From positions 3,588,501 to 3,652,500 of the forward strand of contig NZ_CP097267.1 in assembly GCF_028473605.1 (NCBI RefSeq): a stretch of DNA of 64,000 bases, given 5' to 3'. Of the stretch, positions 7,473 through 27,108 are shown piece after piece. The stretch's first letter is position 1, and each line of letters starts with the position of its first letter. This DNA is from Acidovorax sp. NCPPB 3576 (GTDB lineage: Bacteria > Pseudomonadota > Gammaproteobacteria > Burkholderiales > Burkholderiaceae_C). Made by a program: the position numbers and the translations under genes. The notes beneath the pieces are model-generated. The model searched no databases, was not told where the DNA came from, and saw only the letters and a list, made by a program, of their open reading frames with translations.

Positions 7473-8750
7473 ATGCGCGCCGCACTCTGGTTTCTGGCAC
7501 TTTTTGGCGTGGCCGTCGCGGCCGCGCTGTTCGCGGGCAACAACCAGGGCACGGTGACCCTGTTCTGGCCGCCCTACCGCGTCGATCTGTCGCTCAATCT
7601 CGTCCTGCTGCTGCTGGTCGGCGGCTTCGCCACGCTGTATGTGGCGCTGCGCGCCCTGGCCGCGCTGCTGGAGCTGCCCCGCCAGGCGCGGCGCTGGCGC
7701 GCCCAGCAAAAGGAGCGCTCCATGCACGCCGCGCTGCTCGATGCGCTGTCGCAGCTGCTGGCCGGGCGCTTCATCCGATCGCGCAAGGCCGCCACCGCCG
7801 CCCTCGCGCAAGAAAGCGCGCTGGAGGCATCGGGCGAGGCCGTGCCGCACGGCCGCCAATTGCGCACGCTGGCCCACCTGGTGGCCGCCGAAAGCTCGCA
7901 CGCCCTGCAGGACCGCGCCACGCGCGAGGCGCATTTGCAGAACGCGCTCAACAACATTCCCGACCGCGCGCCGGTCACCGAACTGGAGCTGCGCGAAGGC
8001 GCACACCTGCGCGCGGCCCGCTGGTCGCTGGACGAGCGCGATGCCAACGCCGCGCTCGAACGCCTGGCCGCCCTGCCCCAGGGCGCGGCCCGGCGCACGC
8101 TGGCGCTGCGCGCGCGCCTGAAGGCCACGCGCCTGGCCCACCAGACCCAGGAAGCCCTGGAGACCGCGCGGCTGCTGGGCAAGCACCGGGCGTTTTCGCC
8201 CGCCGCAGCGCAGAGCATCGTGCGCGGCCTGGCCATGGAACTGCTGAACGGCGCGCACGACCCGGCCCAGCTGCAGCAGGTGTGGATGTCGCTGGAGCCC
8301 GCCGAGCGCGCCATGCCCGAGCTGGCCATCCACGCGGCGCAGCGCCTGAGCACCCTGGGCGGCGATGCCGGCCAGGTGCGCCAGTGGCTGCTGCCCGTGT
8401 GGGAACGCATGGTGGAACTGCCGCACGCCCTTCCTGACCACCAGGCGCTCAAGCTGGTGCGCGCCCTGGAAAACAACCTGGATGCGCTCGACGCCGCGTG
8501 GCTCGCCCGCATCGAAGCGGCGCAGCAGGCCAACCCCCGCGATGCGCGCCTGCAGTACCTGGCCGCCATGGCCTGCCTGCGGCGCCAGCTGTGGGGCAAG
8601 GCGCAGCAGCTGTTCACCCAGTCCACCGGGCAATTGGGCGATGCCAGCCTGCGCTGCAGCGCGTGGCGCCACCTGGCCGAACTGGCCGAGCAGCGCGGCG
8701 ACGCCACGGCGGCGGCCACAGCCTGGAAGAACGCCGTACTGGCGTCCTGA
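7473..8750 (+). CDS. hemY: HemY family protein (TPR-type inner-membrane protein of the haem operon)
   Basis: A 425-residue protein with the standard HemY_N layout: membrane helices at about residues 4-22 and 41-62 separated by NNQGTVTLFWPPYRVDLSLN, then a long helical domain with TPR-like repeats. It is unrelated to the Bacillus protoporphyrinogen oxidase of the same name. The ATG follows a CCGGAGGACC site 23 bp after hemX. It is the last gene of the operon and converges on the ABC-F gene. HemY is thought to help coordinate late haem synthesis at the membrane; the mechanism is not established here. Confidence 0.92.
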   Translation: MRAALWFLALFGVAVAAALFAGNNQGTVTLFWPPYRVDLSLNLVLLLLVGGFATLYVALRALAALLELPRQARRWRAQQKERSMHAALLDALSQLLAGRFIRSRKAATAALAQESALEASGEAVPHGRQLRTLAHLVAAESSHALQDRATREAHLQNALNNIPDRAPVTELELREGAHLRAARWSLDERDANAALERLAALPQGAARRTLALRARLKATRLAHQTQEALETARLLGKHRAFSPAAAQSIVRGLAMELLNGAHDPAQLQQVWMSLEPAERAMPELAIHAAQRLSTLGGDAGQVRQWLLPVWERMVELPHALPDHQALKLVRALENNLDALDAAWLARIEAAQQANPRDARLQYLAAMACLRRQLWGKAQQLFTQSTGQLGDASLRCSAWRHLAELAEQRGDATAAATAWKNAVLAS

Positions 8751-8786
8751 CGCAAGGCGGGGCCCAGGCGCCGTGCCTGGGCTTGC
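8751..8786. terminator. Hairpin between convergent hemY and the ABC-F gene
   Basis: GCCCAGGC and GCCTGGGC form an 8-bp stem around a 5-base loop, flanked by an outer CGCAA/TTGCG pairing. There is no clear T-run, so this is a plausible but weak terminator for both converging genes. Confidence 0.4.
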
Positions 8787-8843
8787 GCCCACCCCTCTCT
8801 GCGGCCGCCCGAGGCCGGGCTCCGCCCTTGACCGTGGGCCGCG

Positions 8844-10604
8844 TTACGTCAACGCGACGGCCGGTGCCGCATCCAGATTCCAACCGCCCTCCTCCCACGT
8901 CCAGACCCGCTGCGGCGCCAGCGCCCGCAAGAAATGCCGGTCGTGCGACACCACCAGCAGCGCGCCGGTGAACGACGCCAGCGCGGACTGCAGCGCCGCC
9001 ACGGCCCGCGCATCGAGGTGGTTGGTGGGCTCGTCCAGCAGCAGCATCTGCGCCGGATCGCCGCTCCACAGCGCACAGGCCAGCGCGGCCCTGATGCGCT
9101 CGCCGCCGCTCAAGGTGCCTGCCGGCCGCTGCAAGCAGGCGGCGTCCAGCCCCAGCTGCGCCAGCCGGGTGCGCAGCGCAGCGGGCGGCAGGGGGGAGCC
9201 GGTCTGCGCCAGCCGCTCCAGCACGCTCAGCGCGGGCGGCAGCAACGCCGCGCTGTGCTGGTCGAGCCAGGCCGTGCGCACCATGCAATGCACCCGGCCC
9301 GAGGCGGGTGCCAGCTGCCCCGCCACCATGCGCAGCAGCGTGGTCTTGCCGCAGCCGTTCGGGCCGGTGATGGCGATGCGCACCGGCCCGCTCCACACTC
9401 CGTCGAGCGCCTGGGGCGGGCCGCTGCGCAGTGGCGACCACGGCAGGGGCGGCACGGCCCGCTCCAGCCGCAGCACCGGCTTGGACTGCGCAATGGCGCT
9501 GTCCGGCAACGGCAGCGCCAGGGCCGTGGCGGGCGCCACCCGGCCGGCGGCCTCGCGCACGGCGGCATCCAGCCGCTCGCCCGCCTGCTGGCGGCGCACA
9601 TGCTCCCGGCCTGCGAAGGCCTCGGCATTGCTTTTTTGAAGGCCCAGCAGCAGGGGCGACTGGTTCGTGTCCTGGCCTGCCGCGCGGCCACGGGCGGCCC
9701 GCCGCATCTGCGCGTCGTGCTGGCGCCGCAAATCGCGCTGCGCGGCATCGCGTTCGGCGCGCGCATGGTGCAGCGCGGCCTGGGCTGCCTGGGCCTCGGC
9801 ATCGCGCTGCGCCGCATAGACATCCCACGCACCGCCGTAGTGGCGCAGGCCCTGGGGGCTGAGTTCGGCGATGCGGTCCACCGCCTCCAGCAGCGCGCGG
9901 TCGTGCGTGGCCACCAGCACCGCGCCCCGCCAGTCCGCCAGGGCTGACAGCAGCCAGCGCCGGGCGGGCGCATCGAGGTGGTTGGTGGGCTCGTCCAGCA
10001 GCAGCACGTCGGCACCCGAGAGAAAAGCGCCCGCCAGGGCCACGCGGGCGCGCTCGCCGCCGCTCAGGCAGGCCGCTTCGCGATCCGGGGACAGGTGGCC
10101 CAGCCCCACGCCGTCGAGCGCGCGCTGCCAGCGGGCCGCGCAGTCCCACTGCCCGTCCGCGAGCAGCAGGTCGGCTTCATCGCCCTGCCCGGCCTCCAGC
10201 CGGGCCAGCGCCCCCAGCACGGTATCGATCCCCGCCAGCGCCGCCACGGTGGCGCCCGCGCGGTGCTGGTCCACCGCATGCAGGCGGCCCGGCCGCTCCA
10301 CCGTGCCCGAGGCCGGCGCCAGCGTGCCGGCCGCCAGGGCAAGCAGCACGCTCTTGCCCACGCCGTTGTCGCCCACCAGGCCGGTGATGCCGGGGGCGAG
10401 GTGGAGCGTGGGCGGCTCGGCCCAGAGCGCCTCGCCGTCGGGCCGCAGCCATTGCACGTGGCCCAGGCGCAGCAACGCACCCTCCCGCGCAGGCGGCGGG
10501 GCGGAAACCACCAGGGGAGAAGACGTGGAAGAAGAGGAAAGGGAAACGGATGCGGTGCGCGCTGCACCGCGGGGCGGACGGGCGTCCGCGTTGAATGTCG
10601 CCAT
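8844..10604 (-). CDS. ABC-F family ATP-binding protein
   Basis: A soluble protein of two fused ABC ATPase domains with no membrane segments, 586 residues. The first domain has Walker A GDNGVGKS at residues 78-85, signature LSGGERARVALAG and Walker B LLLDEPTNHLD. The second has GPNGCGKT, LSGGERIRAALA and LLLDEPTNHLD. ABC-F proteins act on the ribosome rather than in transport; some relieve stalling or confer antibiotic protection. The subgroup cannot be fixed by eye. The ATG at 10602-10604 has GGAG seven bases upstream; an in-frame ATG at 10622 is less likely. A Ser-rich leader of about 40 residues precedes the first domain. Confidence 0.92.
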   Translation of the reverse strand: MATFNADARPPRGAARTASVSLSSSSTSSPLVVSAPPPAREGALLRLGHVQWLRPDGEALWAEPPTLHLAPGITGLVGDNGVGKSVLLALAAGTLAPASGTVERPGRLHAVDQHRAGATVAALAGIDTVLGALARLEAGQGDEADLLLADGQWDCAARWQRALDGVGLGHLSPDREAACLSGGERARVALAGAFLSGADVLLLDEPTNHLDAPARRWLLSALADWRGAVLVATHDRALLEAVDRIAELSPQGLRHYGGAWDVYAAQRDAEAQAAQAALHHARAERDAAQRDLRRQHDAQMRRAARGRAAGQDTNQSPLLLGLQKSNAEAFAGREHVRRQQAGERLDAAVREAAGRVAPATALALPLPDSAIAQSKPVLRLERAVPPLPWSPLRSGPPQALDGVWSGPVRIAITGPNGCGKTTLLRMVAGQLAPASGRVHCMVRTAWLDQHSAALLPPALSVLERLAQTGSPLPPAALRTRLAQLGLDAACLQRPAGTLSGGERIRAALACALWSGDPAQMLLLDEPTNHLDARAVAALQSALASFTGALLVVSHDRHFLRALAPQRVWTWEEGGWNLDAAPAVALT

Positions 10605-16617: not shown

Positions 16618-17508
16618 ATGACCGACAACACTTCCGCGATCCGCAAAGCCGTGTTCCCCGTGGCAGGCCTGGGCACCCGCTTCCTGCCCGCCACCAAGGC
16701 ATCCCCCAAGGAAATGCTCCCCGTGGTGGACAAGCCCCTGATCCAGTACGCGGTCGAGGAAGCCTATTCCGCCGGCATCCGCCACATGATCTTCGTGACC
16801 GGCCGCAGCAAGCGCGCCATCGAAGACCATTACGACACCGCCTACGAGCTGGAAAACGAACTCGAAGCCGCCGGCAAGAACGACCTGCTGCAGCTGGTGC
16901 GCTCGGTCGCCCCCAGCGACATGGACTGCGCCTTCGTGCGCCAGCCCCGCTCGCTGGGCCTGGGCCACGCCGTGCTGTGCGCCGAGCCGCTGGTCGGCCG
17001 CGAGCCCTTCGCCGTGCTGCTGGCCGATGACCTGATGGTCGGCGCGCCCGGCGGCCAGCCCGTGCTGGCGCAGATGGCCACCGCCTTCCGCAAGCAGGGC
17101 CGCTCGCTGCTGGCCGTGCAGGAAGTACCCGCCGACCAGGTGCGCCGCTACGGCATCGTGGCCGGCGAGCCCGCCGGCGGCCCGCTGATCCGCATCGACC
17201 GCATCGTGGAAAAGCCCGCACCGGAAGACGCCCCTTCGCGCATGGGCGTGGCCGGCCGCTACATCCTCACGCCTGGCGTGTTCGACGAGATCCGCAACCA
17301 GCCCCAGGGCGTGGGCGGCGAGATCCAGCTGACCGATGCCATTGCCCGCCTCATGGCGCGCGAGGCCGTGTACGCGTTCCGCTACGAAGGAAAGCGCTAC
17401 GACTGCGGCAGCAAGGAAGGCTTTCTGGAAGCAACGGTGGAACTGGCGCTGCAGCACCCGCAGGTGGGCGCCGCCTTCCGCGAGTACCTCAAGACCGTGG
17501 AGATCTGA
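16618..17508 (+). CDS. galU: UTP--glucose-1-phosphate uridylyltransferase
   Basis: Makes UDP-glucose for surface polysaccharides and trehalose-type pathways. The 296-residue protein has the nucleotide-binding segment [20 protein letters not shown], then [31 protein letters not shown] and [12 protein letters not shown], all hallmarks of bacterial GalU. Length is normal. AAGAAGG lies upstream of the ATG. It may be cotranscribed with valS, though the 68-bp gap could hold its own promoter. Confidence 0.97.
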
Positions 17509-17515
17509 AGAAGGC

Positions 17516-17537
17516 GCAGGGCCCGGCGCGGCCCTGC
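17516..17537 (+). terminator. Hairpin downstream of galU
   Basis: GCAGGGCC and GGCCCTGC form a perfect 8-bp stem with a CGCRGC-like six-base loop, eight bases after the galU stop. No T-run follows, so termination is uncertain. Confidence 0.35.
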
Positions 17538-17634
17538 ACAGTGGCCCAGACGGAAATGGGCCCGGTCATCGCGGTGTCGAACCGGTGCGGGGCTGATTGA
17601 AGCGGCTGAAACGGAAAGGCCGCCCTGCTGGCGC

Positions 17635-17862
17635 TCAGCGCCGGCGCAGCAGGTGGATGAATTCGTCGCCCACCGTCTGCTGCTCGACCAGCTCGTTGCC
17701 CGTCTGCTTGGCGAATGCCTGGAAGTCGCGCAGCGAGCCATTGTCGGTAGAGACCACCTTGAGCAACTGGCCGCTCACCATGTCGGCCAGCGCCTTCTTG
17801 GCCTTGAGAATGGGCAGCGGGCAGTTGAGACCGCGGGTGTCGATTTCCTTGTGGATGTCCAT
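17635..17862 (-). CDS. TusA-family sulfurtransferase-like protein
   Basis: A 75-residue protein with the TusA/SirA signature: TRGLNCPLPILKAKKAL, where the Cys of the CPxP motif would carry persulfide sulfur. The fold is a small alpha/beta two-layer sandwich. TusA proteins pass sulfur to tRNA thiolation or molybdenum cofactor synthesis, but many paralogues exist and the partner here is not evident. The ATG at 17860-17862 has AGGAAG six bases upstream; an overlapping GTG one codon earlier is possible. It follows the Nudix gene by 30 bp on the same strand and precedes no other gene, so the two may form an operon. Confidence 0.85.
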   Translation of the reverse strand: MDIHKEIDTRGLNCPLPILKAKKALADMVSGQLLKVVSTDNGSLRDFQAFAKQTGNELVEQQTVGDEFIHLLRRR

Positions 17863-17892
17863 CACATGCTTCCTGGGCGAATGAGCCCCATT

Positions 17893-18438
17893 CTAAGCAG
17901 CCGAAGGGGCTGCACCGCTCTGGAATAAATCCACGAATTCGGGTTCGATGCCTTGCGTTCGCAGCCAGTCCGCCAAGGCATAGCCGGTGCCCGCGGGCCA
18001 GCATTTCACAGCCTCGGGCGCCAGCAGGCGGTAGTCCACCAGTTCGGGCGACAGCCGCACCTCGCCATGCGCCACCGCGTGGTAGGCGATGATGATTTGG
18101 TTCATGCGCTGGAAGTCGTAAACGCCGATGAGCGCCAGCGCGCTCACATCGAGGTTGGTCTCTTCCTTGATCTCGCGCGTGATGCCCTCCTGGGGCGTCT
18201 CGCCCGCCTCCATGAAGCCCGTGATCAGCGCGTACTGCTTGCCTGCCCAGGCGGCATTGCGCGCCAGCAGCACCTGCCCGTCGCGCACCACTACCGCCGC
18301 CAGCACGGGCGTCGGGTTGTTCCAGTGCGTCCAGCCGCAGGCCGGGCAGCGCAGGCGCTCGACATCGCCGCCATCCTCGGCCACCGTGATGCGCGCCAGG
18401 GGCGTGGCGCAGTGGGTGCAAAAGCGGGTTTGGTACAT
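17893..18438 (-). CDS. Nudix hydrolase with N-terminal zinc ribbon (NudC-like)
   Basis: A 181-residue protein. Cys7, Cys10, Cys31 and Cys34 form a zinc ribbon (CTHC and CPAC). The Nudix box runs about residues 74-97: GFMEAGE, then REIKEETNLDV, with all key Glu and Arg residues present. Zinc ribbon plus Nudix resembles NudC NADH pyrophosphatases, but the protein is shorter and lacks an obvious downstream SQPWPFPxS motif, so the substrate is open. The ATG at 18436-18438 begins MYQTRFCTH. A small hairpin repeat lies immediately upstream. Confidence 0.88.
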   Translation of the reverse strand: MYQTRFCTHCATPLARITVAEDGGDVERLRCPACGWTHWNNPTPVLAAVVVRDGQVLLARNAAWAGKQYALITGFMEAGETPQEGITREIKEETNLDVSALALIGVYDFQRMNQIIIAYHAVAHGEVRLSPELVDYRLLAPEAVKCWPAGTGYALADWLRTQGIEPEFVDLFQSGAAPSAA

Positions 18439-18440
18439 AG

Positions 18441-18461
18441 GCGCTACATTTTCAATAGCAA
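18441..18461 (-). repeat. Short dispersed hairpin repeat fragment
   Basis: GCTACATTTTCAATAGC is the same GCTA...TAGC AT-rich hairpin seen at the right ends of the copies at 24007 and 34845. It directly abuts the Nudix start codon and may hold part of that gene's promoter or leader. Confidence 0.5.
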
Positions 18462-18546
18462 ACAAGGCAATGAATACACCGGCATGCGGCCTTTTTCAGC
18501 CTGAACGCCGGTGCGGCGCTCCATCTAAGGCATCCCAGCGGCCGGC

Positions 18547-19452
18547 TCACGCCGGGAACACGCCCGTGGACAGGTAACGGTCGCCCCGGTCGCAGACCAC
18601 GAAGACGATGGTTGCATTAGATTCGCGCCGCGCGATCTCCTGCGCGGCCCAGCAGGCGCCCGCCGCCGAGATGCCGGCAAAGATGCCCTCTTCGCGCGCC
18701 ATGCGCCGGCACATGTCCTCGGCGTCGTCCTGGCCCACGTTGATCGTCTCGTCCACCGCGCTCGGGTCGTATATCTTGGGCAGGTATTCCTGCGGCCACT
18801 TGCGGATGCCGGGGATGCGCGAACCGTCCTTGGGCTGCGCGCCGATGATCTGGATGGCGGGGTTCTTTTCCTTCAGGAAACGCGACACGCCCGTGATGGT
18901 GCCCGTGGTGCCCATGGCGCTCACGAAGTGAGTGATGCGCCCTTCGGTCTGCTCCCACAGTTCGGGGCCCGTGGTCTCGTAATGGATGCGCGGGTTGTCA
19001 GGGTTGGCGAACTGGTCCAGCACCACGCCCTTGCCCTGCTTGACCATGGTTTCGGCCAGATCGCGCGCGTATTCCATGCCGCCGCTCTTGGGGGTGAGGA
19101 TCAGCTCCGCGCCGAAAGCCTTCATGGTCTGCGCGCGCTCCACCGACAGGTCCTCCGGCATCACCAGCACCATGCGGTAGCCCTTGATGGCCGCGGCCAT
19201 GGCGAGCGCGATGCCGGTGTTGCCCGAGGTGGCCTCGATCAGTGTGTCGCCGGGTTTGATGTCTCCCCGCTCCTGCGCCCGGCGGATCATCGACAGCGCG
19301 GGCCGGTCCTTGACCGATCCGGCCGGATTGTTGCCCTCCAGCTTGCCCAGCACCACGGTGCCCCGCTCTGCGTTCTCTTGCGCGCCGATGCGCTGCAGCG
19401 CAACCAAAGGGGTGTGTCCAATCGCGTCTTCGATGGTGGGATAGGTCTTCAT
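18547..19452 (-). CDS. cysM: Cysteine synthase B (O-acetylserine sulfhydrylase)
   Basis: PLP enzyme making cysteine from O-acetylserine and sulfide or thiosulfate. The 301-residue protein carries LEGNNPAGSVKDRPAL with the Schiff-base Lys at residue 48, EATSGNTGIALAM for PLP-phosphate and substrate binding, and GTTGTITGVSRFL. The NPAGSVKDR form and the length fit CysM rather than CysK. The start MKTYPTIEDAIGHTPLV is standard. It is transcribed away from the adjacent tRNA-Leu gene and has no close partner. Confidence 0.95.
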   Translation of the reverse strand: MKTYPTIEDAIGHTPLVALQRIGAQENAERGTVVLGKLEGNNPAGSVKDRPALSMIRRAQERGDIKPGDTLIEATSGNTGIALAMAAAIKGYRMVLVMPEDLSVERAQTMKAFGAELILTPKSGGMEYARDLAETMVKQGKGVVLDQFANPDNPRIHYETTGPELWEQTEGRITHFVSAMGTTGTITGVSRFLKEKNPAIQIIGAQPKDGSRIPGIRKWPQEYLPKIYDPSAVDETINVGQDDAEDMCRRMAREEGIFAGISAAGACWAAQEIARRESNATIVFVVCDRGDRYLSTGVFPA

Positions 19453-19495
19453 AGCGCGCTACTGTGCCATAATTCGCGGCTTCGATCTTCGCGTC

Positions 19496-19580
19496 GCCCG
19501 GGTGGTGGAATTGGTAGACGCAGGGGACTCAAAATCCCCCGCCGCAAGGCGTGCCGGTTCGATTCCGGCCCCGGGCACCA
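19496..19580 (+). tRNA. tRNA-Leu (anticodon CAA)
   Basis: An 85-base cloverleaf. The acceptor stem GCCCGGG pairs with CCCGGGC, and CCA is encoded at 19578-19580. The anticodon stem GGGGA/TCCCC encloses CTCAAAA with anticodon CAA at 19530-19532, which reads UUG. The T-arm contains GGTTCGATTCC. A long variable arm (GCCGCAAGGCG region) confirms a class II leucine tRNA. Confidence 0.97.
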
Positions 19581-19646
19581 TGGCTTTCTTGCCATGAATG
19601 CACAGCAGCTTCTCCCTCGCTGCATTCCGCGCACTCTGAATGAATG

Positions 19647-19667
19647 GCCCGCTTTCGCGGGCTTTTT
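19647..19667 (+). terminator. Rho-independent terminator after tRNA-Leu
   Basis: GCCCGC-TTTC-GCGGGC followed by five T. It lies 66 bp beyond the tRNA and fits as its terminator. Confidence 0.8.
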
Positions 19668-19750
19668 ACTTTCTACGGCCCTGTCCTCCCCACGGTGCCA
19701 ATAGGCATGGCGCTCCAAGTTAAGAACGGTCACCCGGGCTACCGGCCAAC

Positions 19751-19785
19751 AAAAAGCCCCGGTGCGTCACCGCACTGGGGCTTTT
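19751..19785. terminator. Bidirectional terminator below the CsbD gene
   Basis: AAAAAGCCCCGGTGCG and CGCACTGGGGCTTTT form a strong stem (one G-T wobble) with a TCAC loop. An A-run on the left and a T-run on the right let it work in both directions, closing the CsbD transcript from the minus strand. Confidence 0.85.
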
Positions 19786-19817
19786 CAACCGCAGAGGCAC
19801 AAGCGCCTCCGCCGGCA

Positions 19818-19997
19818 TTACTTCACGGCGTCCTTGATGTTCTCTTTGGCGTCGCCGTAGTTCTTCTGGGTGGTGCCCTCGACCTGCTTGGCAATGCCCT
19901 TGGCTTGCTGCTCGGGGCTGTTGATCAGCTCGCCGGTCTTTTGTTGAACCTTGCCTGCCACGTCCTTCAATGCGCCCTTGACTTGATCGGTGTTCAT
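19818..19997 (-). CDS. CsbD-family stress protein
   Basis: A 59-residue protein starting MNTDQVKGALKDVAGKVQ and containing the repeated Asp/Lys/Gly pattern of CsbD (KGIAKQVEGTTQKNYGDAKE). CsbD proteins are small, hydrophilic, possibly disordered and induced by general stress in many bacteria; their molecular role is unknown. AAAGGAATCACC precedes the ATG, giving a good ribosome site. It is the last gene in a set of six tiny minus-strand genes. The terminators at 20124 and 19751 bracket it, so it probably has its own promoter in the 126 bp upstream. Confidence 0.88.
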   Translation of the reverse strand: MNTDQVKGALKDVAGKVQQKTGELINSPEQQAKGIAKQVEGTTQKNYGDAKENIKDAVK

Positions 19998-20123
19998 GGT
20001 GATTCCTTTCGGTGAGGTATGTGCAAAACAAAATGGCTTTGCATGACCTGAAGGCTAAGACCCGATCCGCAGGGCCCGCGCGGGCGGAAGCCATCCGTTG
20101 GCGTCAGCAGGTACCTACACAAG

Positions 20124-20155
20124 AAAAAACCCGCAACGTGGCAACGTGCGGGTTG
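20124..20155 (-). terminator. Terminator between the 70-residue gene and CsbD
   Basis: Read on the minus strand, ACCCGCA and TGCGGGT pair around an 11-base loop and are followed by six T. It lies about 95 bp beyond the 70-residue gene's stop. Confidence 0.75.
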
Positions 20156-20248
20156 GTGTATTCGAGGTCGGGTGGATTGATCAAGGCGCGGTCGTGGCGT
20201 TCATCAAGTCCAGGTCCACGGCGTTCCAACCGCTGCCACGCGCATTCT

Positions 20249-20461
20249 TTATTTCGTCCACTTGCGCTGAACCTTGGGCTTGACCCGAATGTCCACGGCC
20301 TTTTGAACTTCAGGGCGGCCGGTCTGGGTATTGGTGTCCACTACATCTTCGAGGGCGATTTTTTCCACCTCGGAGTTTGTTTCTTCTTCCAGCTTTTCCA
20401 GCATGGCACCCACGCGCTTCTCCGCCTCGGACACCTCCCGCTCGGTCGCGTCACGCGTCAT
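20249..20461 (-). CDS. Small acidic protein, unknown function (70 residues)
   Basis: A hydrophilic 70-residue protein, MTRDATEREVSEAEKRVGAM onward, rich in Glu, Lys and Val. The first half should be helical; the second contains VDIRVKPKVQRKWTK. I do not recognise a named family. The ATG at 20459-20461 has GGGAG about seven bases upstream and overlaps the TGA of the preceding 45-residue reading frame (ATGA), which argues that both are translated. Followed by a clear terminator. The company of CsbD and a plasmid-stabilisation-like gene suggests a stress-related role, which is inference only. Confidence 0.6.
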   Translation of the reverse strand: MTRDATEREVSEAEKRVGAMLEKLEEETNSEVEKIALEDVVDTNTQTGRPEVQKAVDIRVKPKVQRKWTK

Positions 20462-20595
20462 GGGCGGCTCCCGGCGGCCCTGCTGGCCGCGCATTGCACG
20501 TGCGGGGGTTCATCCGCTTGTTCGGGCGGCGGGGCGGGCACATCGGGCTCGACCGGCAGGTCGGCCTTGCCAGGGGCGGGTGGATGGGAGGCCAT
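20458..20595 (-). CDS. Proline-rich 45-residue protein
   Basis: Begins MASHPPAPGKADLPVEPDVP and is rich in Pro, Glu and Ala. I recall similar short PGKxDLPVEPD proteins in Pseudomonas and Burkholderia, usually annotated as hypothetical. Its stop codon overlaps the start of the 70-residue gene (ATGA), the best evidence that it is real. The ribosome site is weak. Function unknown. Confidence 0.5.
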   Translation of the reverse strand: MASHPPAPGKADLPVEPDVPAPPPEQADEPPHVQCAASRAAGSRP

Positions 20596-20675
20596 ACAAG
20601 GTTGAGCGGGTTGAAATGGAAGGTGCTGAATGCGGGCGTCCGGAGGCGAAACCGAGATGCTCTGCTTCCTGCAAC

Positions 20676-20768
20676 TCAGAGACCGCTCATGACCGAAGCG
20701 GCCAGGTAGGCGATTCCAAGGCTGGAAAACAGCATGAATCCGGCGAGGACAGTCAGAGTTTCTTTCAT
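20676..20768 (-). CDS. 30-residue single-helix membrane peptide
   Basis: Reads MKETLTVLAGFMLFSSLGIA then YLAASVMSGL. Almost the whole peptide is one hydrophobic helix (about residues 5-26) with a charged N-terminus. GAAGGATTGAACAT precedes the ATG, giving AAGGA at a suitable distance. It is too short for most gene finders. Small membrane peptides of this size often regulate a larger membrane complex, but nothing here identifies a partner. Confidence 0.5.
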   Translation of the reverse strand: MKETLTVLAGFMLFSSLGIAYLAASVMSGL

Positions 20769-20866
20769 ATGTTCAATCCTTCAATAGGAACAGACCATCG
20801 GAAGCAAGCTATGACTGGCATCCACGACGCTGGGGGCACAAAAATGTTGAGAAAAATCTCCCGAGG

Positions 20867-21052
20867 TCAGCGGGTGGGTTGACTGCGTCCGCCACCGAAC
20901 TGCTTTCCACCGCTGTCATCCTTGTTCACCGTGCCACAGGCACGACACTCGGAATCTGGCTTACTGAAACCACGGTGTTCATTGCTATCTTCGATATGTT
21001 CGTTTTGGCGCTTTTGCTTTTTTGTGTGCGCCGACTTGTCACCTCTTGGCAT
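20867..21052 (-). CDS. Plasmid-stabilisation-like small basic protein
   Basis: A 61-residue hydrophilic protein: MPRGDKSAHTKKQKRQNEHI, a central Cys pair (ECRACGTVNK) and a Gly-rich C-terminus (DDSGGKQFGGGRSQ). This follows the pattern of short proteins I know as MPRGDKSKYTDKQKRKAEHI...GVSEKEAERRAWATVNK, often labelled plasmid stabilisation protein on weak grounds. Here the usual Ala-Trp is replaced by Ala-Cys-Gly. GAGGAGCAGCC gives an excellent ribosome site. Base composition is lower in G+C than the core genes. Function not established. Confidence 0.75.
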   Translation of the reverse strand: MPRGDKSAHTKKQKRQNEHIEDSNEHRGFSKPDSECRACGTVNKDDSGGKQFGGGRSQPTR

Positions 21053-21196
21053 GGCTGCTCCTCGGATGGGTTGTCGTGCCGCTTGGGGTTCAACACGCCG
21101 TGAAGCAGCACAGGCGATACCTTAAAACTGCCCCCGGCGGGTCGTCTGTAGGACGAGAACGGCTGCGTGGCTGAGTTCAGGCCCTGGCAGGCCATG

Positions 21197-21241
21197 AAAA
21201 AACCCGGCCGCCCTTCCATGGCTGGGAGGGCTGCGCCGGGT
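21197..21241 (-). terminator. Terminator below the 72-residue gene
   Basis: On the minus strand, ACCCGGC pairs with GCCGGGT, with an inner GCCCT/AGGGC stem, followed by six T. It lies about 56 bp past the stop of the 72-residue gene. Confidence 0.8.
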
Positions 21242-21297
21242 ACGGATACCGGCATTCGGCCGGATCAGACGGGGAACGGGGGGTGAATGCCTGGGGC

Positions 21298-21516
21298 TCA
21301 GCTTTCCTGGCGGCGGATCAGCTGGCGGCCCGCGTCGGTGATGGCCAGGTCGCCGGCCGGATTCTTGGCCACGTAGCCGCGTTCGTAGAGCCGTCCCGAC
21401 AGGTGGTGCGTGAGCGCCTCGGGCACGCTGATGGCCCGGCCCAATTCCAGTTGCTTGAGCGCTTCGAGCTCATCCACCGTGGGGTCGAAATGCGGTGCGT
21501 GATAAACGGTTCCCAT
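21298..21516 (-). CDS. Small winged-helix-like protein (72 residues)
   Basis: Begins MGTVYHAPHFDPTVDELEAL and ends with LAITDAGRQLIRRQES. The pattern of two short helices followed by GDLAITDAGRQLI resembles the wing and last strand of small winged-helix proteins, so it may bind DNA or act as a fragment of a regulator. No family name can be given with confidence. AGGAGAAAGCTTC precedes the ATG, a good ribosome site, so the longer frame upstream is not used. It sits downstream of the LysR gene on the same strand, separated by about 140 bp. Confidence 0.6.
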   Translation of the reverse strand: MGTVYHAPHFDPTVDELEALKQLELGRAISVPEALTHHLSGRLYERGYVAKNPAGDLAITDAGRQLIRRQES

Positions 21517-21655
21517 GAAGCTTTCTCCTTGTTGATTGCACAGACGCTGCAGTTCGCTGGACCGAGGCCTTGCGCTTGAGCTGCAGCTGACCCAAAGGGT
21601 AGCCGCGCCGCCACCCGCGCGCAATCGGCCGGCGGCACGGAAGGCGCCCGGCGGC

Positions 21656-22552
21656 TCAACTCGCGGCCATGTCCTGCAACCAGCGGGCGAAGGCGGCCAG
21701 CACGGGGGGCTGCGGCTGCGCCGGGGTGATGAGGTAGTAGGCGCGCTCGCCGCGCAGGGGCCGCTCGCACGCCAGCACCAGTTCGCCCCGGGCCCGCTCG
21801 GCCTCGATCAGCAGCGGCGGCATGAGCGCCACGCCCAGCCCGTGCGCAGCGGCCACGGCCAACATGGAGAACAGCTCGTACCGCGGCCCGTCGAGCGCGC
21901 GGGGCGCCTGCACGTCCATGGCTTCGAACCATTGCCGCCATCCGTAGGGGCGCGTGGTCTGCTGCAGCAGCGGCAGGCTGGCCAGCGCCTGGGGTTCGAG
22001 AGGCTGCCCGCCGGGCAACAGGCGGGGGCTGCACACGGGCACCACGTCTTCCTGCAGCAACCGCAGCGCCTGCGTGCCCGGCCAGTTGCTGACCTGCTCG
22101 GGCGTGCCGGCATACAGCGCGGCGTCGAAGCCGGTTTCGGCGAACAGGAAGGGCCGCGTGCGCGTCTCGATGTGCACGACGATCTCCGGGTGCGCCTGGG
22201 CGAGCAGGGGCAGGCGCGGGATCAGCCAGCGCGTGGCGAAGGTGGGCACGGCGGCGAGCGCGATCGCCCCGCCCTGCCCCTGGTGCGCCATGACATCGAG
22301 CGTGTCGCGCTCCAGCCCTTGCAGCCAGCGGCCCACCTGCCGCGCATAGTGATTGCCCGCCGGGGTGAGCGCCACGCCGTGCCGCGTGCGGCGAAACAGC
22401 GCCACGCCCAGAAAATCCTCCAGCGCCATGATCTGCCGCGAGACGGCGCTCTGTGTGAGCGCCAGCTCCTGGGCCGCGCGGGTGTAGCTTTCATGGCGGG
22501 CAGCCGCCTCGAAGCAGGCCAGTGACTGGGTGGAGGGAAGGGTTCGGCGCAT
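21656..22552 (-). CDS. LysR-family regulator of the glutarate genes (GcdR/GcvA-like)
   Basis: A 298-residue LysR-type regulator. The helix-turn-helix lies at about residues 20-45 (YTRAAQELALTQSAVSRQIM) and the effector-binding domain occupies about 95-298. It has GcvA-subfamily features such as LACFEAAARHESYTRAA and VPTFATRWLIPRL. It is divergent from gcdH across 183 bp containing a perfect 8-bp inverted repeat. In Pseudomonas a LysR protein, GcdR, activates gcdH-gcdG; the same job is likely here by position. The ATG at 22550-22552 begins MRRTLPSTQSLACF. Confidence 0.88.
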   Translation of the reverse strand: MRRTLPSTQSLACFEAAARHESYTRAAQELALTQSAVSRQIMALEDFLGVALFRRTRHGVALTPAGNHYARQVGRWLQGLERDTLDVMAHQGQGGAIALAAVPTFATRWLIPRLPLLAQAHPEIVVHIETRTRPFLFAETGFDAALYAGTPEQVSNWPGTQALRLLQEDVVPVCSPRLLPGGQPLEPQALASLPLLQQTTRPYGWRQWFEAMDVQAPRALDGPRYELFSMLAVAAAHGLGVALMPPLLIEAERARGELVLACERPLRGERAYYLITPAQPQPPVLAAFARWLQDMAAS

Positions 22553-22573
22553 GGTGCGATTTTGGGGCAGATT

Positions 22574-22604
22574 TTGCCTCACTCCATCGCCAAATATGAG
22601 GCAA
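22574..22604. promoter_or_regulatory. Inverted repeat, probable LysR operator
   Basis: TTGCCTCA (22574-22581) and TGAGGCAA (22597-22604) are perfect inverted arms separated by 15 bases. They lie 21 bp upstream of the LysR start and about 130 bp upstream of gcdH, the usual place for a LysR recognition site controlling both genes. Confidence 0.6.
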
Positions 22605-22735
22605 CCGCATGTCTGGATGCACCATCCTCGCTTGCACCGCAATATCCATGCGCCTACCATTGCGCCAACCCTGAAGCCCATGCGCTTTGTGCACACCGGC
22701 TACCTTTTTGAACCGACTTTCCCGGAGACACCGAC

Positions 22736-23932
22736 ATGGCCCACGCCACCTTCCAATGGAGCGACCCGTTCCTGCTCGACCAGCAACTGACCGACGACGA
22801 GCGCATGATTCGCGACGCGGCCGCCGCCTTCTGCCAGGACAAGCTCGCCCCGCGCGTGCTGGAGCAGTTCCGCCATGAAAAGACCGACATCGCCATCTTC
22901 CGCGAGATGGGCGAAGTGGGCCTGCTGGGCCCCACCATTCCCGAGCAGTACGGCGGCCCCGGCCTGAACTACGTAGCCTACGGGCTCATCGCCCGCGAGG
23001 TCGAGCGCGTGGACTCGGGCTACCGCTCGATGGCCAGCGTGCAAAGCTCCCTCGTGATGGTGCCGATCCACGAGTTCGGCACCGAGGCGCAAAAGCAGAA
23101 GTATTTGCCCAAGCTGGCCAGCGGAGAGTGGATCGGCTGCTTCGGCCTGACCGAGCCCGACCACGGCTCCGACCCCGGCAGCATGGCATCGCGCGCCAAG
23201 AAGGTGCCGGGCGGCTATTCGCTGTCGGGCGCCAAGATGTGGATCACCAACAGCCCCATCGCCGATGTGTTCGTGGTCTGGGCCAAGGAAGTGTCCGAAG
23301 GCGGCGCGGTGGGCCCGATCCGCGGGTTCGTGCTCGAAAAAGGCATGAAGGGCCTGAGCGCGCCGGCCATTCACGGCAAGGTGGGCCTGCGCGCCAGCAT
23401 CACCGGCGAGATCGTGATGGACGAGGTGTTCGTGCCCGAGGAAAACGCCTTCCCCGAAGTGCAGGGCCTCAAAGGCCCCTTCACCTGCCTGAACAGCGCC
23501 CGCTACGGCATCGCCTGGGGCGCGCTGGGGGCGGCGGAGTTCTGCTGGCACACCGCGCGCCAGTACACGCTGGACCGCAAGCAGTTCGGCCGGCCCCTGG
23601 CGGCCAACCAGCTCATCCAGAAGAAGCTGGCCGACATGCAGACCGAGATCGCCATCGGCCTGCAGGCCTGCCTGCGCCTGGGCCGCATGAAGGACGACGG
23701 CACCGCCTCGGTCGAGGCCACGTCCATCATCAAGCGCAACAGCTGCGGCAAGGCGCTGGACATCGCCCGCATGGCGCGCGACATGATGGGCGGCAACGGC
23801 ATCAGCGACGAGTTCGGCGTGGCGCGCCATCTGGTGAACCTGGAGGTGGTCAATACCTACGAGGGCACGCACGATGTGCACGCGCTGATCCTGGGCCGGG
23901 CCCAGACCGGCATCGCCGCCTTCGCCAACTGA
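22736..23932 (+). CDS. gcdH: Glutaryl-CoA dehydrogenase
   Basis: FAD enzyme oxidising and decarboxylating glutaryl-CoA to crotonyl-CoA in lysine, hydroxylysine and tryptophan catabolism. The 398-residue protein has [72 protein letters not shown] and the terminal [17 protein letters not shown], where the Glu at about residue 376 is the expected catalytic base. These features separate GcdH from other acyl-CoA dehydrogenases. GGAGACACCGAC precedes the ATG. A CoA-transferase gene follows on the same strand. Confidence 0.95.
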
Positions 23933-24006
23933 ACAGGCGAACGCAAGCACGCGCCCCCGGCCTGGACCGCCAGGGCGGGCCCTGCCGGGCGGTTCATGGC
24001 CTTTCA

Positions 24007-24057
24007 GGCCTCCAGCGCAATCAATACTAGGGCGTATTGCTACTATTTTTATAGCAA
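24007..24057 (+). repeat. Dispersed AT-rich hairpin repeat between gcdH and the CoA-transferase gene
   Basis: Begins GGCCTCCAGCGCA, passes through ACTAGGGCGT, and ends GCTACTATTTTTATAGC, a small hairpin. AATAC/GTATT forms a second stem. The same blocks occur in hemD (5754) and in part at 34845, 18441 and 47542. It splits the gcdH-transferase gap and ends 13 bp before the next start codon, so it may also carry the ribosome-site region or affect mRNA stability. Confidence 0.75.
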
Positions 24058-24069
24058 AGCGATTTTTGC

Positions 24070-25332
24070 ATGACCACGACCTCCCCCACCCCGGCGGGCG
24101 CCCTCGCCGGCATCCGCGTGCTCGACCTGTCCCGCGTGCTCGCCGGCCCCTGGTGCACCCAGGTGCTGGCCGACCTGGGGGCGGACGTGATCAAGGTGGA
24201 GCGCCCCGGCGTGGGCGACGACACGCGCCACTGGGGCCCGCCGTTCCTGAAGGACGACGCGGGCAACGACACGGCGCAGGCCGCCTACTTCACGGCCTGC
24301 AACCGCAACAAGCGTTCGGTCACCATCGACATGGCCACGCCCGAGGGGCAGGCGCTGATCCGCCAGATGGCGCAGCAGGCCGACGTGGTGGTGGAGAACT
24401 TCAAGGTCGGCGGCCTGCGGCAGTACGGACTGGACCACGCCAGCCTGCGCGCGGCCAACCCGCGGCTCATCTACTGCTCGGTGACCGGCTTCGGCCAGGA
24501 CGGGCCCTATGCCGAGCGCGCCGGCTACGACCTCATGATCCAGGCGATGACGGGCCTGATGAGCATCACCGGCCGGGCCGACGGCGAGCCCGGCGCCGGC
24601 CCGCTGCGCGTGGGCGTGGCCGTGATCGACCTGTTCACCGGGCTCTACGCCAGCAACGCCATCCTGGCCGCGCTGCACGTGCGCGAGCGCACCGGCGAAG
24701 GCCAGCACATCGACATGGCGCTGCTGGACGTGGGCATGGCCGTGCTGGCCAACCAGGCCTCGGGCTTCCTGGCCACCGGACAGGCGCCGACCCGCCAGGG
24801 CAATACGCACCCCAGCCTGGTGCCCTACCAGGACTTTCCCACCGCCGACGGCGCCATGCTGCTGGCCATCGGCAACGACGGGCAGTTCGCACGCTTTTGC
24901 GCCACAGCCGGCCGTCCGGAATGGGCACAGGACGCCCGGTTCGCGACCAACCCGCTGCGGGTCAGGAACCGCGCCGAACTGGTCCCTGCCCTGCAGGAGG
25001 TGACCCGCACCCGCACCACGGCCGACTGGATCGCCCTGCTGCAGGACAAGGCCGTGCCCTGCGGCCCGGTCAACACGCTGGCCGAGGCGTTCGACGATCC
25101 GCAGGTGCAGGCGCGCGGCCTGCGGGTGGAGCAGGCCCGGTGGCCGGCGGGCGAGCCGGGCGACGGCATCGGGCACATCGCCGGGGTGGCGAGTCCCATG
25201 CGCCTGTCGGCCACGCCGCCCGTGCTGCACCGGGCACCGCCAGCCCTGGGACAGCACACCGACGAAGTGCTGGCCGGGCTCGGGCTGGACCCGGCGCGGA
25301 TTGCGCAGCTTCGAGCGGCGAACGTCGTTTAG
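24070..25332 (+). CDS. CaiB/BaiF family CoA-transferase, probably for glutarate
   Basis: A 420-residue class III CoA-transferase. GIRVLDLSRVLAGPWCTQVL starts the fold, NRNKRSVTIDM and VENFKVGGLRQYGLD are typical, and the Asp in VAVIDLFTGLYA (about residue 187) is the expected catalytic residue that forms the acyl-anhydride. The GEGQHIDMALLD strand follows. Directly behind gcdH and under a LysR regulator, it most likely moves CoA from succinyl-CoA to glutarate (GcdG-like), feeding GcdH. The substrate is inferred from context. The region before the ATG has no strong ribosome site, and a repeat lies there. Confidence 0.88.
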   Translation: MTTTSPTPAGALAGIRVLDLSRVLAGPWCTQVLADLGADVIKVERPGVGDDTRHWGPPFLKDDAGNDTAQAAYFTACNRNKRSVTIDMATPEGQALIRQMAQQADVVVENFKVGGLRQYGLDHASLRAANPRLIYCSVTGFGQDGPYAERAGYDLMIQAMTGLMSITGRADGEPGAGPLRVGVAVIDLFTGLYASNAILAALHVRERTGEGQHIDMALLDVGMAVLANQASGFLATGQAPTRQGNTHPSLVPYQDFPTADGAMLLAIGNDGQFARFCATAGRPEWAQDARFATNPLRVRNRAELVPALQEVTRTRTTADWIALLQDKAVPCGPVNTLAEAFDDPQVQARGLRVEQARWPAGEPGDGIGHIAGVASPMRLSATPPVLHRAPPALGQHTDEVLAGLGLDPARIAQLRAANVV

Positions 25333-25355
25333 CCGCATCTGCCTTCCCGATCCCC

Positions 25356-25387
25356 AAAAAAGCCTTGCCTTCGAGCAAGGCTTTTTT
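25356..25387. terminator. Bidirectional terminator after the glutarate genes
   Basis: AGCCTTGC-CTTCGA-GCAAGGCT with six A to the left and six T to the right; a classic intrinsic terminator 23 bp past the CoA-transferase stop. Confidence 0.92.
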
Positions 25388-25426
25388 CATGGCGCGCCGC
25401 TCCGCTGTACGGAAAGTCAAATATGA

Positions 25427-25457
25427 TTTATTTGATAAAAATGATAATTCAAATAAA
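25427..25457. promoter_or_regulatory. Perfect 9-bp inverted repeat upstream of the first chemoreceptor gene
   Basis: TTTATTTGA (25427-25435) and TCAAATAAA (25449-25457) are exact inverted arms around 13 AT-rich bases. The site lies 73 bp before the chemoreceptor start in a strikingly AT-rich pocket, consistent with a promoter and operator. Confidence 0.5.
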
Positions 25458-25530
25458 CTACGTGCATCCGACAGCCCCAAGCTGCTCCTCACGAAGGGGC
25501 ATCCTTCCACGCCACTTCAGGAATCCTCCC

Positions 25531-27108
25531 ATGAAGCTCAGCCGAAAACTCCCCCTGGTATTCACATTGGCCCTGTTGCTGCTGTTCGCTGCGGCGCTGT
25601 TCGGCCTGGGCCGGCTCAATAGCGCACTGACCACGTACCAGACCACGGTCGCCGTCCACACCCAGCAAGAGCGGGTGGCTGCCGACACGCTGGGCGACTT
25701 CCGTGTGCAGGTACAGGAATGGAAGAACGTGCTGCTGCGGGGCAAGGACGATGCGCAGCTGTCGCGTTACTGGGCGGCCTTCGAGAAAAGCGAAGGCGCG
25801 GTACAGGCCCAGGCCCGCAAGCTGCTGGGCGATTTGCCCACCAGCGACGCGCGCGAGCGGGTCGGCCAGTTCCTGCAGGCACACGAGCGCATGGGGGTGG
25901 CCTACCGCAAGGGGTTCGAGACGTTCAAGACCTCCGGGCGGGATGCCGCCGCAGGCGACCAGGCCGTGCAGGGCATGGACCGGGAGCCGGCGCAATTGCT
26001 GGAGCAGACGGGCGATCTGATCAGCAAGGCCAGCGCGGCCGTATCCCTGGAAGCCGCATCGGCGGCCCGCCAAGCCAACTGGGTCAGCCTGACCGTGATG
26101 CTGGTGGTGTGCGGGGCCAGCATCTTCGGCGCGGTGCTGTTCAGCCGCACCGTGACGGAACCGCTTGGCAACGCGGTGCGCATTTCAGAGGCGGTGGCCT
26201 CCGGCGACCTGACCCAAGCCGCCCAGGCGCGCGGCCGCGACGAGATCGCCCAGTTGCTGAACGCGCTCCATGCCATGCAGGGCAGCCTCTCGCAGGTGGT
26301 CAGCAACGTGCGCGAAAACGCCGACAGCGTGGCGAACGCCAGCAGCGAGATCGCGCAAGGCAACAACGACCTGTCGGCCCGCACCGAGCAGCAGGCCGGT
26401 GCGCTGGAAGAAACCTCGGCCTCGATGGAAGAACTCAGCTCCACCGTGCAGGCCAATGCGGAAAATGCGCGGCAGGCCAACCAGTTGGCCCTGAACGCAT
26501 CGACCGTGGCCTCCAAGGGCGGCGATGTGGTGTCGGAGGTGGTCAGCACCATGCGCGGCATCAACGACAGCAGCCGCAAGATCGCCGACATCGTGGGCGT
26601 GATCGACGGCATTGCCTTTCAGACGAACATCCTGGCACTGAACGCCGCCGTGGAAGCGGCGCGGGCCGGCGAACAAGGGCGCGGCTTCGCGGTGGTGGCC
26701 AGCGAGGTGCGCCAGTTGGCCCAGCGCAGCGCCGAAGCGGCCAAGGAGATCAAGACCCTGATCCACGCCAGCGTCACACGCATGCAGCAGGGCTCGGTGC
26801 TGGCTGACCAGGCGGGCACCACCATGACCGAGGTGGTCGCCTCGATCCGCCGCGTCACCGACATCGTGGCCGAGATCAGCGCCGCCAGCAGCGAGCAAAG
26901 CGCGGGGGTCTCCCAAGTGGGAGAGGCCGTGATGCAGATGGACCAGGCCACCCAGCAGAACGCCGCCCTGGTGGAGCAAAGCGCCGCCGCGGCGGACAGC
27001 CTCAAGATGCAGGCGCAGCGACTGGTGCAGGCCGTGGCCGTGTTCCGACTGCACCCGCAGGGCGGCACCCCCGGCCCCCGGCTGCAGGGGGCCGTGAAGG
27101 CCGCCTGA
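25531..27108 (+). CDS. Methyl-accepting chemotaxis protein (four-helix-type sensor)
   Basis: A 525-residue transducer. Membrane helices are at about residues 7-28 and 188-210, enclosing a periplasmic helical domain of about 160 residues that looks like a four-helix bundle. A HAMP segment follows, then a signalling domain with the hairpin tip containing [20 protein letters not shown] and [20 protein letters not shown]. There is no C-terminal NWETF-type CheR docking pentapeptide; the chain ends GAVKAA. The ligand is unknown. CheV lies 200 bp downstream on the same strand, so the two may work together. AGGAAT precedes the ATG; an upstream in-frame extension has no supporting site. Confidence 0.93.

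Follow-up and report, generated by a model that had tools for sequence, protein, structure and literature searches.

Small genes beside tRNA-Leu(CAA) in Acidovorax sp. NCPPB 3576: a probable composite locus with a csbD gene that changes address

The locus studied here lies in a window of 64,000 nucleotides from Acidovorax sp. NCPPB 3576 (contig NZ_CP097267.1, positions 3,588,501 to 3,652,500 of the forward strand; the surrounding genome is a single contig of 5.41 Mb). Six very small genes are located on the minus strand beyond a tRNA-Leu(CAA) gene, and encode CsbD (59 amino acids, aa) and proteins or peptides of 70, 45, 30, 61 and 72 aa. An earlier note on this DNA had described them as a small stress-response island placed beside the tRNA. 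Our analyses make it rather probable that the locus is a composite of at least three transcription units, not one inserted island, that these units stand beside a phage-targeted tRNA, and that csbD is mobile. Independent regulation of three units beside this tRNA is the likeliest way in which the locus works. The strongest new result concerns csbD, which was found at six addresses in 16 genomes with its distinctive promoter kept. The comparison set consisted of the own genome (G000) and 16 genomes of the same genus (G001-G016), 17 in total. Judged by the 72-aa gene, the nearest named relatives are Paracidovorax valerianellae (93%) and Acidovorax sp. SUPP3334 (86%), followed by P. oryzae, P. 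citrulli, P. anthurii, P. konjaci and P. cattleyae. The features of the locus, in window positions, are:

19496..19580, plus strand: tRNA-Leu(CAA), separated by 237 bp from the end of CsbD; relatives G005, G011 and G016 have a phage-type integration site at its 3' end
19752..19792, minus strand: terminator 3' of csbD, folding z -4.45 against shuffles
19818..19997, minus strand: csbD, 59 aa, PF05532 profile match
20052..20057, minus strand: TAGCCT, -10-like hexamer of csbD, 44 nt past the box
20102..20119, minus strand: csbD upstream box TGTAGG-N6-CTGACG, putative activator site with its centre near -65
20115..20162, minus strand: terminator 3' of the 70-aa gene, folding z -3.64 against shuffles
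20249..20461, minus strand: gene of the 70-aa acidic protein, from the list of open reading frames (ORFs), no family assigned
20458..20595, minus strand: gene of the 45-aa proline-rich peptide, its stop overlapping the 70-aa start by 4 nt
20676..20768, minus strand: gene of a predicted 30-aa single-helix membrane peptide (ORF list, alignment, hydropathy)
20867..21052, minus strand: 61-aa gene, short relative of 104-105-aa proteins, divergent in the window and truncated in G006
21119..21124, minus strand: TAAGGT, -10-like hexamer, 22 nt past the conserved box
21147..21156, minus strand: conserved box TCGTCCTACA, upstream of the 61/30/45/70-aa genes
21192..21247, minus strand: terminator 3' of the 72-aa gene, folding z -2.79 against shuffles
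21298..21516, minus strand: gene of the 72-aa winged-helix-like protein (structure model)

The layout had been described correctly before. The positions, strand and lengths of the six ORFs all match the ORF list. The G+C content is lower than in the flanks, at 0.56-0.62 in 500-base windows from 19500 to 21250, whereas the windows on either side, from 17500 to 25250, have 0.63-0.74; the 72-aa gene's own windows have 0.65-0.68, and a further dip to 0.59 is located at 25250-25749. The three terminators proposed between the genes are minus-strand folds far below shuffles. A simple terminator scan found one of the three, and its total of 3 was not above the shuffled 4.1. The Rfam search of the locus gave the tRNA alone at gathering level, and two extra low-scoring, chance-like matches at E up to 1.

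Small ORFs are expected by chance in GC-rich DNA, and 94 ORFs of at least 25 aa overlap positions 17000-24500; therefore, selection was tested. The ratio of nonsynonymous to synonymous differences per site (pN/pS) was determined for 26 ORFs of at least 30 aa, comparing the window with G003, G006 and G016, and the 70-aa gene was scored in a longer 81-aa frame. The values were 0.06 (30 aa), 0.17 (72 aa), 0.17 (CsbD), 0.22 (45 aa), 0.25 (70 aa) and 0.37 (61 aa, a value that includes one relative with a broken frame). Among the 20 other ORFs, one antisense ORF inside the 72-aa gene had 0.36, and the remaining 19 had 0.49-2.63. The pairwise ratios of nonsynonymous to synonymous substitution rates (dN/dS) within the window's clade were 0-0.21 (30 aa), 0-0.34 (72 aa), 0.10-0.25 (CsbD), 0.10-0.19 (45 aa), 0.06-0.15 (70 aa) and 0.20-0.48 (61 aa). 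Third codon positions vary more than the others in five of the six genes (Fisher p at most 0.003); in the 30-aa gene, where changes are few, the third-position excess has p 0.078. By these measures all six ORFs are under purifying selection, i.e. they are to be regarded as real genes, and the coding potential is conserved between strains, which the earlier note had named as a check. It is extremely improbable that the short frames are spurious and that the region consists of promoters and untranslated RNA alone. Such a reading could draw on the abundance of chance ORFs and on the lack of families (none for the 30-, 45- and 61-aa proteins, sub-threshold matches at most for the 70-aa protein), and it conflicts with the pN/pS ranking, with the cross-species dN/dS, and with the retention of the frames in 15 to 17 genomes. 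The claim that most of these genes would be missed by gene calling stands in part, as two other strains have an annotated 70-aa protein and P. valerianellae has an annotated relative of the 45-aa peptide.

The six genes differ in age and distribution. With contig ends and inserts set aside, the order cysM, tRNA-Leu(CAA), a variable part, the 72-aa gene, a LysR regulator, an acyl-CoA dehydrogenase and a CoA-transferase is kept in the genus, and also in Acidovorax sp. 210-6, Simplicispira lacusdiani and Comamonas granuli. In S. lacusdiani the interval is near-empty, with about 206 bp between the end of the 72-aa gene and the tRNA-Leu. The 72-aa gene occurs in 17 of 17 genus genomes and in 4 of 43 genomes outside the genus, from four other genera. 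The core of the 45-aa peptide (QPVEPDxPxPxPEPADxPP) occurs in all 17 genus genomes. Among 250 family genomes it was found in ten, namely three genus members, one weak match and six good matches in other genera, and all six good matches lie about 3-585 nt downstream of a 72-aa match. The 70-aa gene is present in 17 of 17 genus genomes and in none of the 43 others, and it stands at the cluster position in 13. The 30-aa gene is present in 15 of 17 and in none of the 43; in the 250 family genomes the peptide was found in three, all of them genus members, and in 0 of 247 outside the genus. The csbD gene is at the cluster address in 4 of 17 genomes (G000, G003, G006 and G016), and the 61-aa gene is intact at the cluster in three (G000, G003 and G016), with a premature stop in G006. 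Thus, in the comparison beside tRNA-Leu that had been proposed as a check, the 72- and 45-aa genes are general (17/17), whereas csbD (4/17) and the 61-aa gene (three intact copies) are not. As judged from this distribution, the 72-aa gene and the proline-rich peptide appear to be an older, cross-genus layer, the 30- and 70-aa genes would be of genus level, found in this genus alone, and the 61-aa gene appears to be a recent, partly decayed addition.

Several local rearrangements were also observed. The 70-aa gene is located elsewhere in G001, G004, G005 and G014, with no tRNA within about 6 kb at those four places. The displaced gene adjoins the same flanking gene (83-84% identical) in G004, G014 and G005 (L125, L127 and L130), and in G005 it is near a DJ-1/PfpI family gene. 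In G004 and G014 (L126 and L128), a 48-aa ORF lies 3' of the 72-aa gene, near the position that the 30-aa gene has in other genomes; it has a ribosome-binding site, and the CKRCAVGLGC motif is common to both copies. In a genome of another genus (G020, L182), a 401-aa ORF lies about 325 nt past the 72-aa gene, beside the 72/45-aa pair, and looks like an integrase by reading of the sequence alone.

The tRNA-Leu was rightly suspected to be an insertion site, as it is one in relatives. Integrase-bearing elements are located at this tRNA in G005, G011 and G016, where the integrase gene ends 96-98 bp before a copied tRNA 3' end. G016 has an intact tRNA-Leu beside cysM; about 32 kb on there is a copy of its 3' part, then the original downstream flank, and then csbD. 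In G005 and G011, identical tRNA 3' copies of 58 and 56 bp precede the cluster, and the intact tRNA was not seen in the pieces examined. A 60-bp partial tRNA-Leu 3' copy near the end of a 14-kb contig of G014 (L128:10347-10406) is perhaps a fourth insertion. The cluster, or its remains, is on the outer side of the copied tRNA end in G005, G011, G016 and G014. Phages would integrate in the tRNA-Leu of relatives and leave the cluster outside. The G016 integrase piece was matched by PHROGs and by nothing in Pfam. The element of about 32 kb in G016 (L122 from 11084 to L029:5530) is bounded by an integrase and, at the opposite end, by a 1335-aa polyvalent protein (LPD39, ART-PolyVal); it looks like a prophage. 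In two relatives (L026:4681-5894 and L028:8460-10078), the genes carried between tRNA-Leu and the cluster encode, among others, a DUF1828 protein that matches the PADLOC candidate PDC-M24B, and a protein with a weak match to PDC-M66A.

These data bear on the proposal that all six genes arrived as one stress-response island inserted beside tRNA-Leu. The lower G+C, the real integration site in relatives, and csbD as a stress-family gene found beside tRNAs at four addresses are in keeping with it. Nevertheless, no second tRNA 3' copy was found in the 13 kb surrounding the window's own locus (matches at E < 1 and at least 15 nt), the genes differ in age and distribution, and the islands of G005, G011 and G016 have the tRNA on one side and the cluster on the other. 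No integrase was identified among the cluster genes, by profile searches of the five other small proteins and by Pfam and NCBIfam for CsbD. A single inserted island was rejected on the copies of the attachment site (att), the synteny and the gene ages, and it is considered very unlikely here. What survives of the earlier description is that CsbD belongs to a stress family and that csbD alone behaves as an arrival beside a tRNA. The composite of separate units is therefore preferred.

The csbD gene changes its address within the genus. CsbD (59 aa) matches PF05532 with 51.9 bits against a cut-off of 40 (residues 4-56 on the full profile), and the gene was found in 16 of 17 genus genomes (not in G010). 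Comparison of the flanks gave six addresses in these 16 genomes, four of them beside different tRNA genes:

tRNA-Leu: G000, G003, G006 and G016 (4 genomes)
tRNA-Lys(TTT): G009 and G011, 327-338 nt away
tRNA-Arg(ACG): G005, 353 nt away
tRNA-Ser(GCT): G002, G007, G012, G013 and G015, 1.3-5.6 kb away
tRNA-Ser(GCT): G008, by the shared flank alone, as the contig ends before the tRNA
no tRNA: G001, 14-25 kb examined on the sides that contigs allow
no tRNA: G004 and G014, 14-25 kb examined on the sides that contigs allow

With the addresses labelled by the author, the core-gene tree requires at least five changes of address. A tRNA lies within 1.5 kb of 7 of 16 csbD loci, versus 2 of 17 loci of a second csbD and 1 of 14 motif loci. 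In the csbD tree the G005 copy groups with clade B, and its grouping with G001, G004 and G014 was rejected by the approximately unbiased (AU) test (p 3.2e-5). This supports one csbD transfer between lineages. Inspection by eye of the DNA within 3.5 kb of csbD at six loci revealed no obvious integrase-like ORF, and eight csbD loci showed no copy of a tRNA 3' end. As for the present locus, the ancestor of the window's clade may have acquired csbD at the tRNA-Leu address, together with a promoter and a terminator of its own.

The csbD promoter is conserved in a distinctive form. Between clades the DNA upstream of csbD has background identity (about 45-55%). A box GTAGNC-N5-C(C/T)(G/T)AC followed, after exactly 44 nt, by TANNNT was identified at 15 of 16 csbD loci; the window's box has T at the sixth position. 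The second csbD (72 aa) is located elsewhere in the own genome and is present in 17 of 17 genus genomes, and the box with its 44-nt spacing recurs in all 16 of its promoters that were scanned and, by eye, in the 17th. When the box was scanned in the own genome with one mismatch, two of 14 places had TANNNT at 44 nt, namely this csbD and the second csbD. In 1.29 Mb of genus DNA (both strands), 16 strict boxes were found, 15 of them with the -10, which are 14 csbD promoters and one site in G005; the scanned regions were chosen for containing csbD or the cluster, and therefore the count shows the specificity of the rule, not its frequency. In G005 (L130:8585-8601), a csbD-type box with TAGCAT 44 nt on is located upstream of a gene at 8727-9788, which encodes a ligase-associated DNA damage response exonuclease (TIGR04122) and is followed by a DNA-ligase-like frame. 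This exonuclease is a possible further member of a csbD-box regulon.

The csbD gene would be switched on by an activator at the box centred near -65, which would recruit polymerase to a -10 element without a good -35, and the same regulator would drive the second csbD. A wider proposal is that csbD in this genus is a self-contained stress cassette (activator box, -10, gene and terminator), which lands repeatedly beside tRNA genes, is probably carried and left by tRNA-end integrases, moves between lineages, and stays under the control of a single conserved stress regulator, which would also act on the second csbD and perhaps on a DNA-repair operon. This remains tentative, and is on balance somewhat doubtful.

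The 30-, 45- and 70-aa genes, together with the 61-aa gene in the window's clade, may form a small-protein operon of genus level. It would start at a conserved promoter, consisting of box TCGTCCTACA, about 21-22 nt and a -10-like hexamer, and end at its own terminator. All 15 genomes with the 30-aa gene have the sequence GTCCTACA in the interval that separates the 72-aa gene from the gene after it, and neither of the 2 genomes lacking the 30-aa gene has it; a TANNNT-like hexamer follows this sequence, at 22 nt in the window (read by eye). In eight genomes a second copy, GTCCGACA, lies 22 bp upstream of GTCCTACA. The resulting direct repeat GTCCGACA-N14-GTCCTACA with 22-bp spacing was observed between the 72- and 30-aa genes in G007-G013 and G015 (loci L021-L028). 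The spacing equals two helical turns, and suggests side-by-side binding of a regulator. Of 18 genomes examined for a double box GTCCKACA-N14-GTCCKACA, 5 had it, each time at the cluster locus; the own genome did not. The window's clade shows almost no variation over the roughly 90 bp that lead up to and across the 30-aa start (3 of 90 columns vary), so that a second promoter nearer to the gene may exist.

The 30-aa peptide has 17 invariant residues across 15 sequences and one hydrophobic stretch (Kyte-Doolittle 1.9 over 19 residues), and it would be inserted in the membrane. Its length, single hydrophobic stretch, strong conservation and conserved upstream stretch in the window's clade would also fit a type I toxin-like membrane peptide checked by an antisense RNA, with the downstream peptides in the same unit. 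However, the peptide has a single match in every genome that carries it, its gene has no sign of mobility, and Rfam gave the tRNA alone at gathering level and nothing credible at E up to 1, so that a toxin is an unlikely explanation. PADLOC matched neither the 30-aa nor the 70-aa protein. The 70-aa protein had sub-threshold family matches at most, and one chance-level match in the PDB by sequence profile.

The stop of the 45-aa frame and the start of the 70-aa gene overlap by 4 nt in G000, G003, G006 and G016, and are 32-88 nt apart in nine other genomes. The two frames may be translationally coupled in the window's clade through this overlap. Alternatively, the 45-aa frame could encode a proline-rich leader peptide; ribosomes that translate it slowly or stall on it would then set the translation of the 70-aa gene, as in the CutF/cutO pair (PMC9973294). 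The overlap in four genomes, the spacing in nine and the proline-rich core kept in 17 of 17 genomes agree with such a leader. The peptide nevertheless persists where the 70-aa gene is elsewhere (G001, G004, G005 and G014). Peptides of other genera lie near the 72-aa gene, with no 70-aa match in the 43 non-genus genomes examined, and no signal-peptide-like stretch is visible in the 45-aa sequence. A leader function is thus improbable, and the small-protein operon remains the preferred reading of this unit.

The 72-aa gene would be a separate unit with its own conserved promoter and terminator. A conserved element, CCGRTTGCRC ... GGCTAcnCT, was found upstream of it. The protein had been called winged-helix-like, and its structure model is a winged helix with three helices, a wing and one C-terminal helix (predicted local distance difference test, pLDDT, 75; predicted TM-score, pTM, 0.56). 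No Pfam match at cut-off was found, and the PDB search by sequence profile gave none. The best structural matches of the model are MarR proteins, with scores that are middling by the tool's own scale. The protein is predicted to be a single winged-helix domain and is probably a DNA-binding regulator.

Several observations weigh against the readings given here for csbD and for the operon. For csbD, two of the six addresses have no nearby tRNA. The csbD trees rest on 177 columns, and keeping G001, G004 and G014 together was not rejected (p 0.099). The G005 csbD has the box and no TANNNT at N44, and outside the genus the box pattern occurs at one of four csbD loci (L102), the other three being without it. 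The 14 places found in the own genome compare with 46 in a reversed-pattern control, which rules out the box as a plain genome-wide motif. For the operon, a regulon of the TCGTCCTACA box was considered and dropped: the rule of box and -10 gave the locus and one other own-genome site, versus one in the control, and therefore no regulon is shown. The 45-aa gene is without a clear ribosome-binding site, and in the four genomes named above it has no adjoining 70-aa gene. The structure model of the 70-aa protein, a long helix and a beta hairpin, is weak (pTM 0.28). The window's 61-aa copy is divergent, and the G006 copy stops early.

Understanding this locus might be helpful in several ways. A vague island of small genes becomes testable parts, with three uncharacterised microproteins (30, 45 and 70 aa) kept by selection genus-wide. 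The position of csbD is unstable, yet the geometry of its promoter is constant to the base. The 44-nt spacing common to two csbD paralogues offers a direct route to the putative stress regulator, and the recurrence of addresses beside tRNAs provides a test of how single small genes spread.

Each part of the locus can be compared with known systems. MarR proteins need extra dimerisation helices. The matched MarR chains have 130-156 aa in most top rows, and the 72-aa protein is about half that length; therefore, the parts outside the DNA-binding domain are missing, and it lacks the full-length chain with dimerisation helices of a MarR regulator. The 61-aa protein has 59-61% identity over 75-89% of its length to proteins of 104-105 aa, one of which (P0003) is named plasmid stabilization system protein ParE by one source. 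Unlike these relatives, it has no lysine- and alanine-rich tail. Its earlier description as plasmid-stabilisation-like holds as far as this relationship goes, and finds no support in families, as the 61-aa protein has no Pfam or NCBIfam match at cut-off and P0002 and P0003 have no Pfam match. In the window it has ECRACGTVN in place of the conserved ERRAWATVN, which gives a CxxC absent from its relatives.

CutF is described as a proline-rich leader acting on cutO translation (PMC9973294). Like the CutF-type leaders described there, the 45-aa peptide is a proline-rich small ORF just upstream of another gene, overlapping it in one clade; unlike them, it has no visible signal-peptide-like stretch and persists without the downstream gene.

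The 59-aa CsbD shares the PF05532 domain with the CsbD family. In bacteria, proteins of this family have been described as stress factors, for instance in group B Streptococcus (PMC10294668), and the present protein may have a similar stress role. Unlike the described csbD genes, it changes address within one genus and has a box-N44-TANNNT promoter in common with a paralogue; the literature searches made here found no paper on either feature. The GacA upstream activating sequence is TGTAAG-N6-CTTACA, with reported sites at -75 and -196 (PMC4950607). Compared with this site, the csbD box (TGTAGG-N6-CTKACG) has the same spacing and agrees at 9 of 12 positions in the window and at 10 of 12 in several relatives. 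Unlike the GacA sites of that report, it lies in the promoter of a gene for a small stress protein instead of an Rsm RNA gene. In A. citrulli, a kinase of the BarA type has been reported, and its response regulator is described as unknown (PMC9748350). The putative csbD activator is probably a response regulator of the NarL/GacA type.

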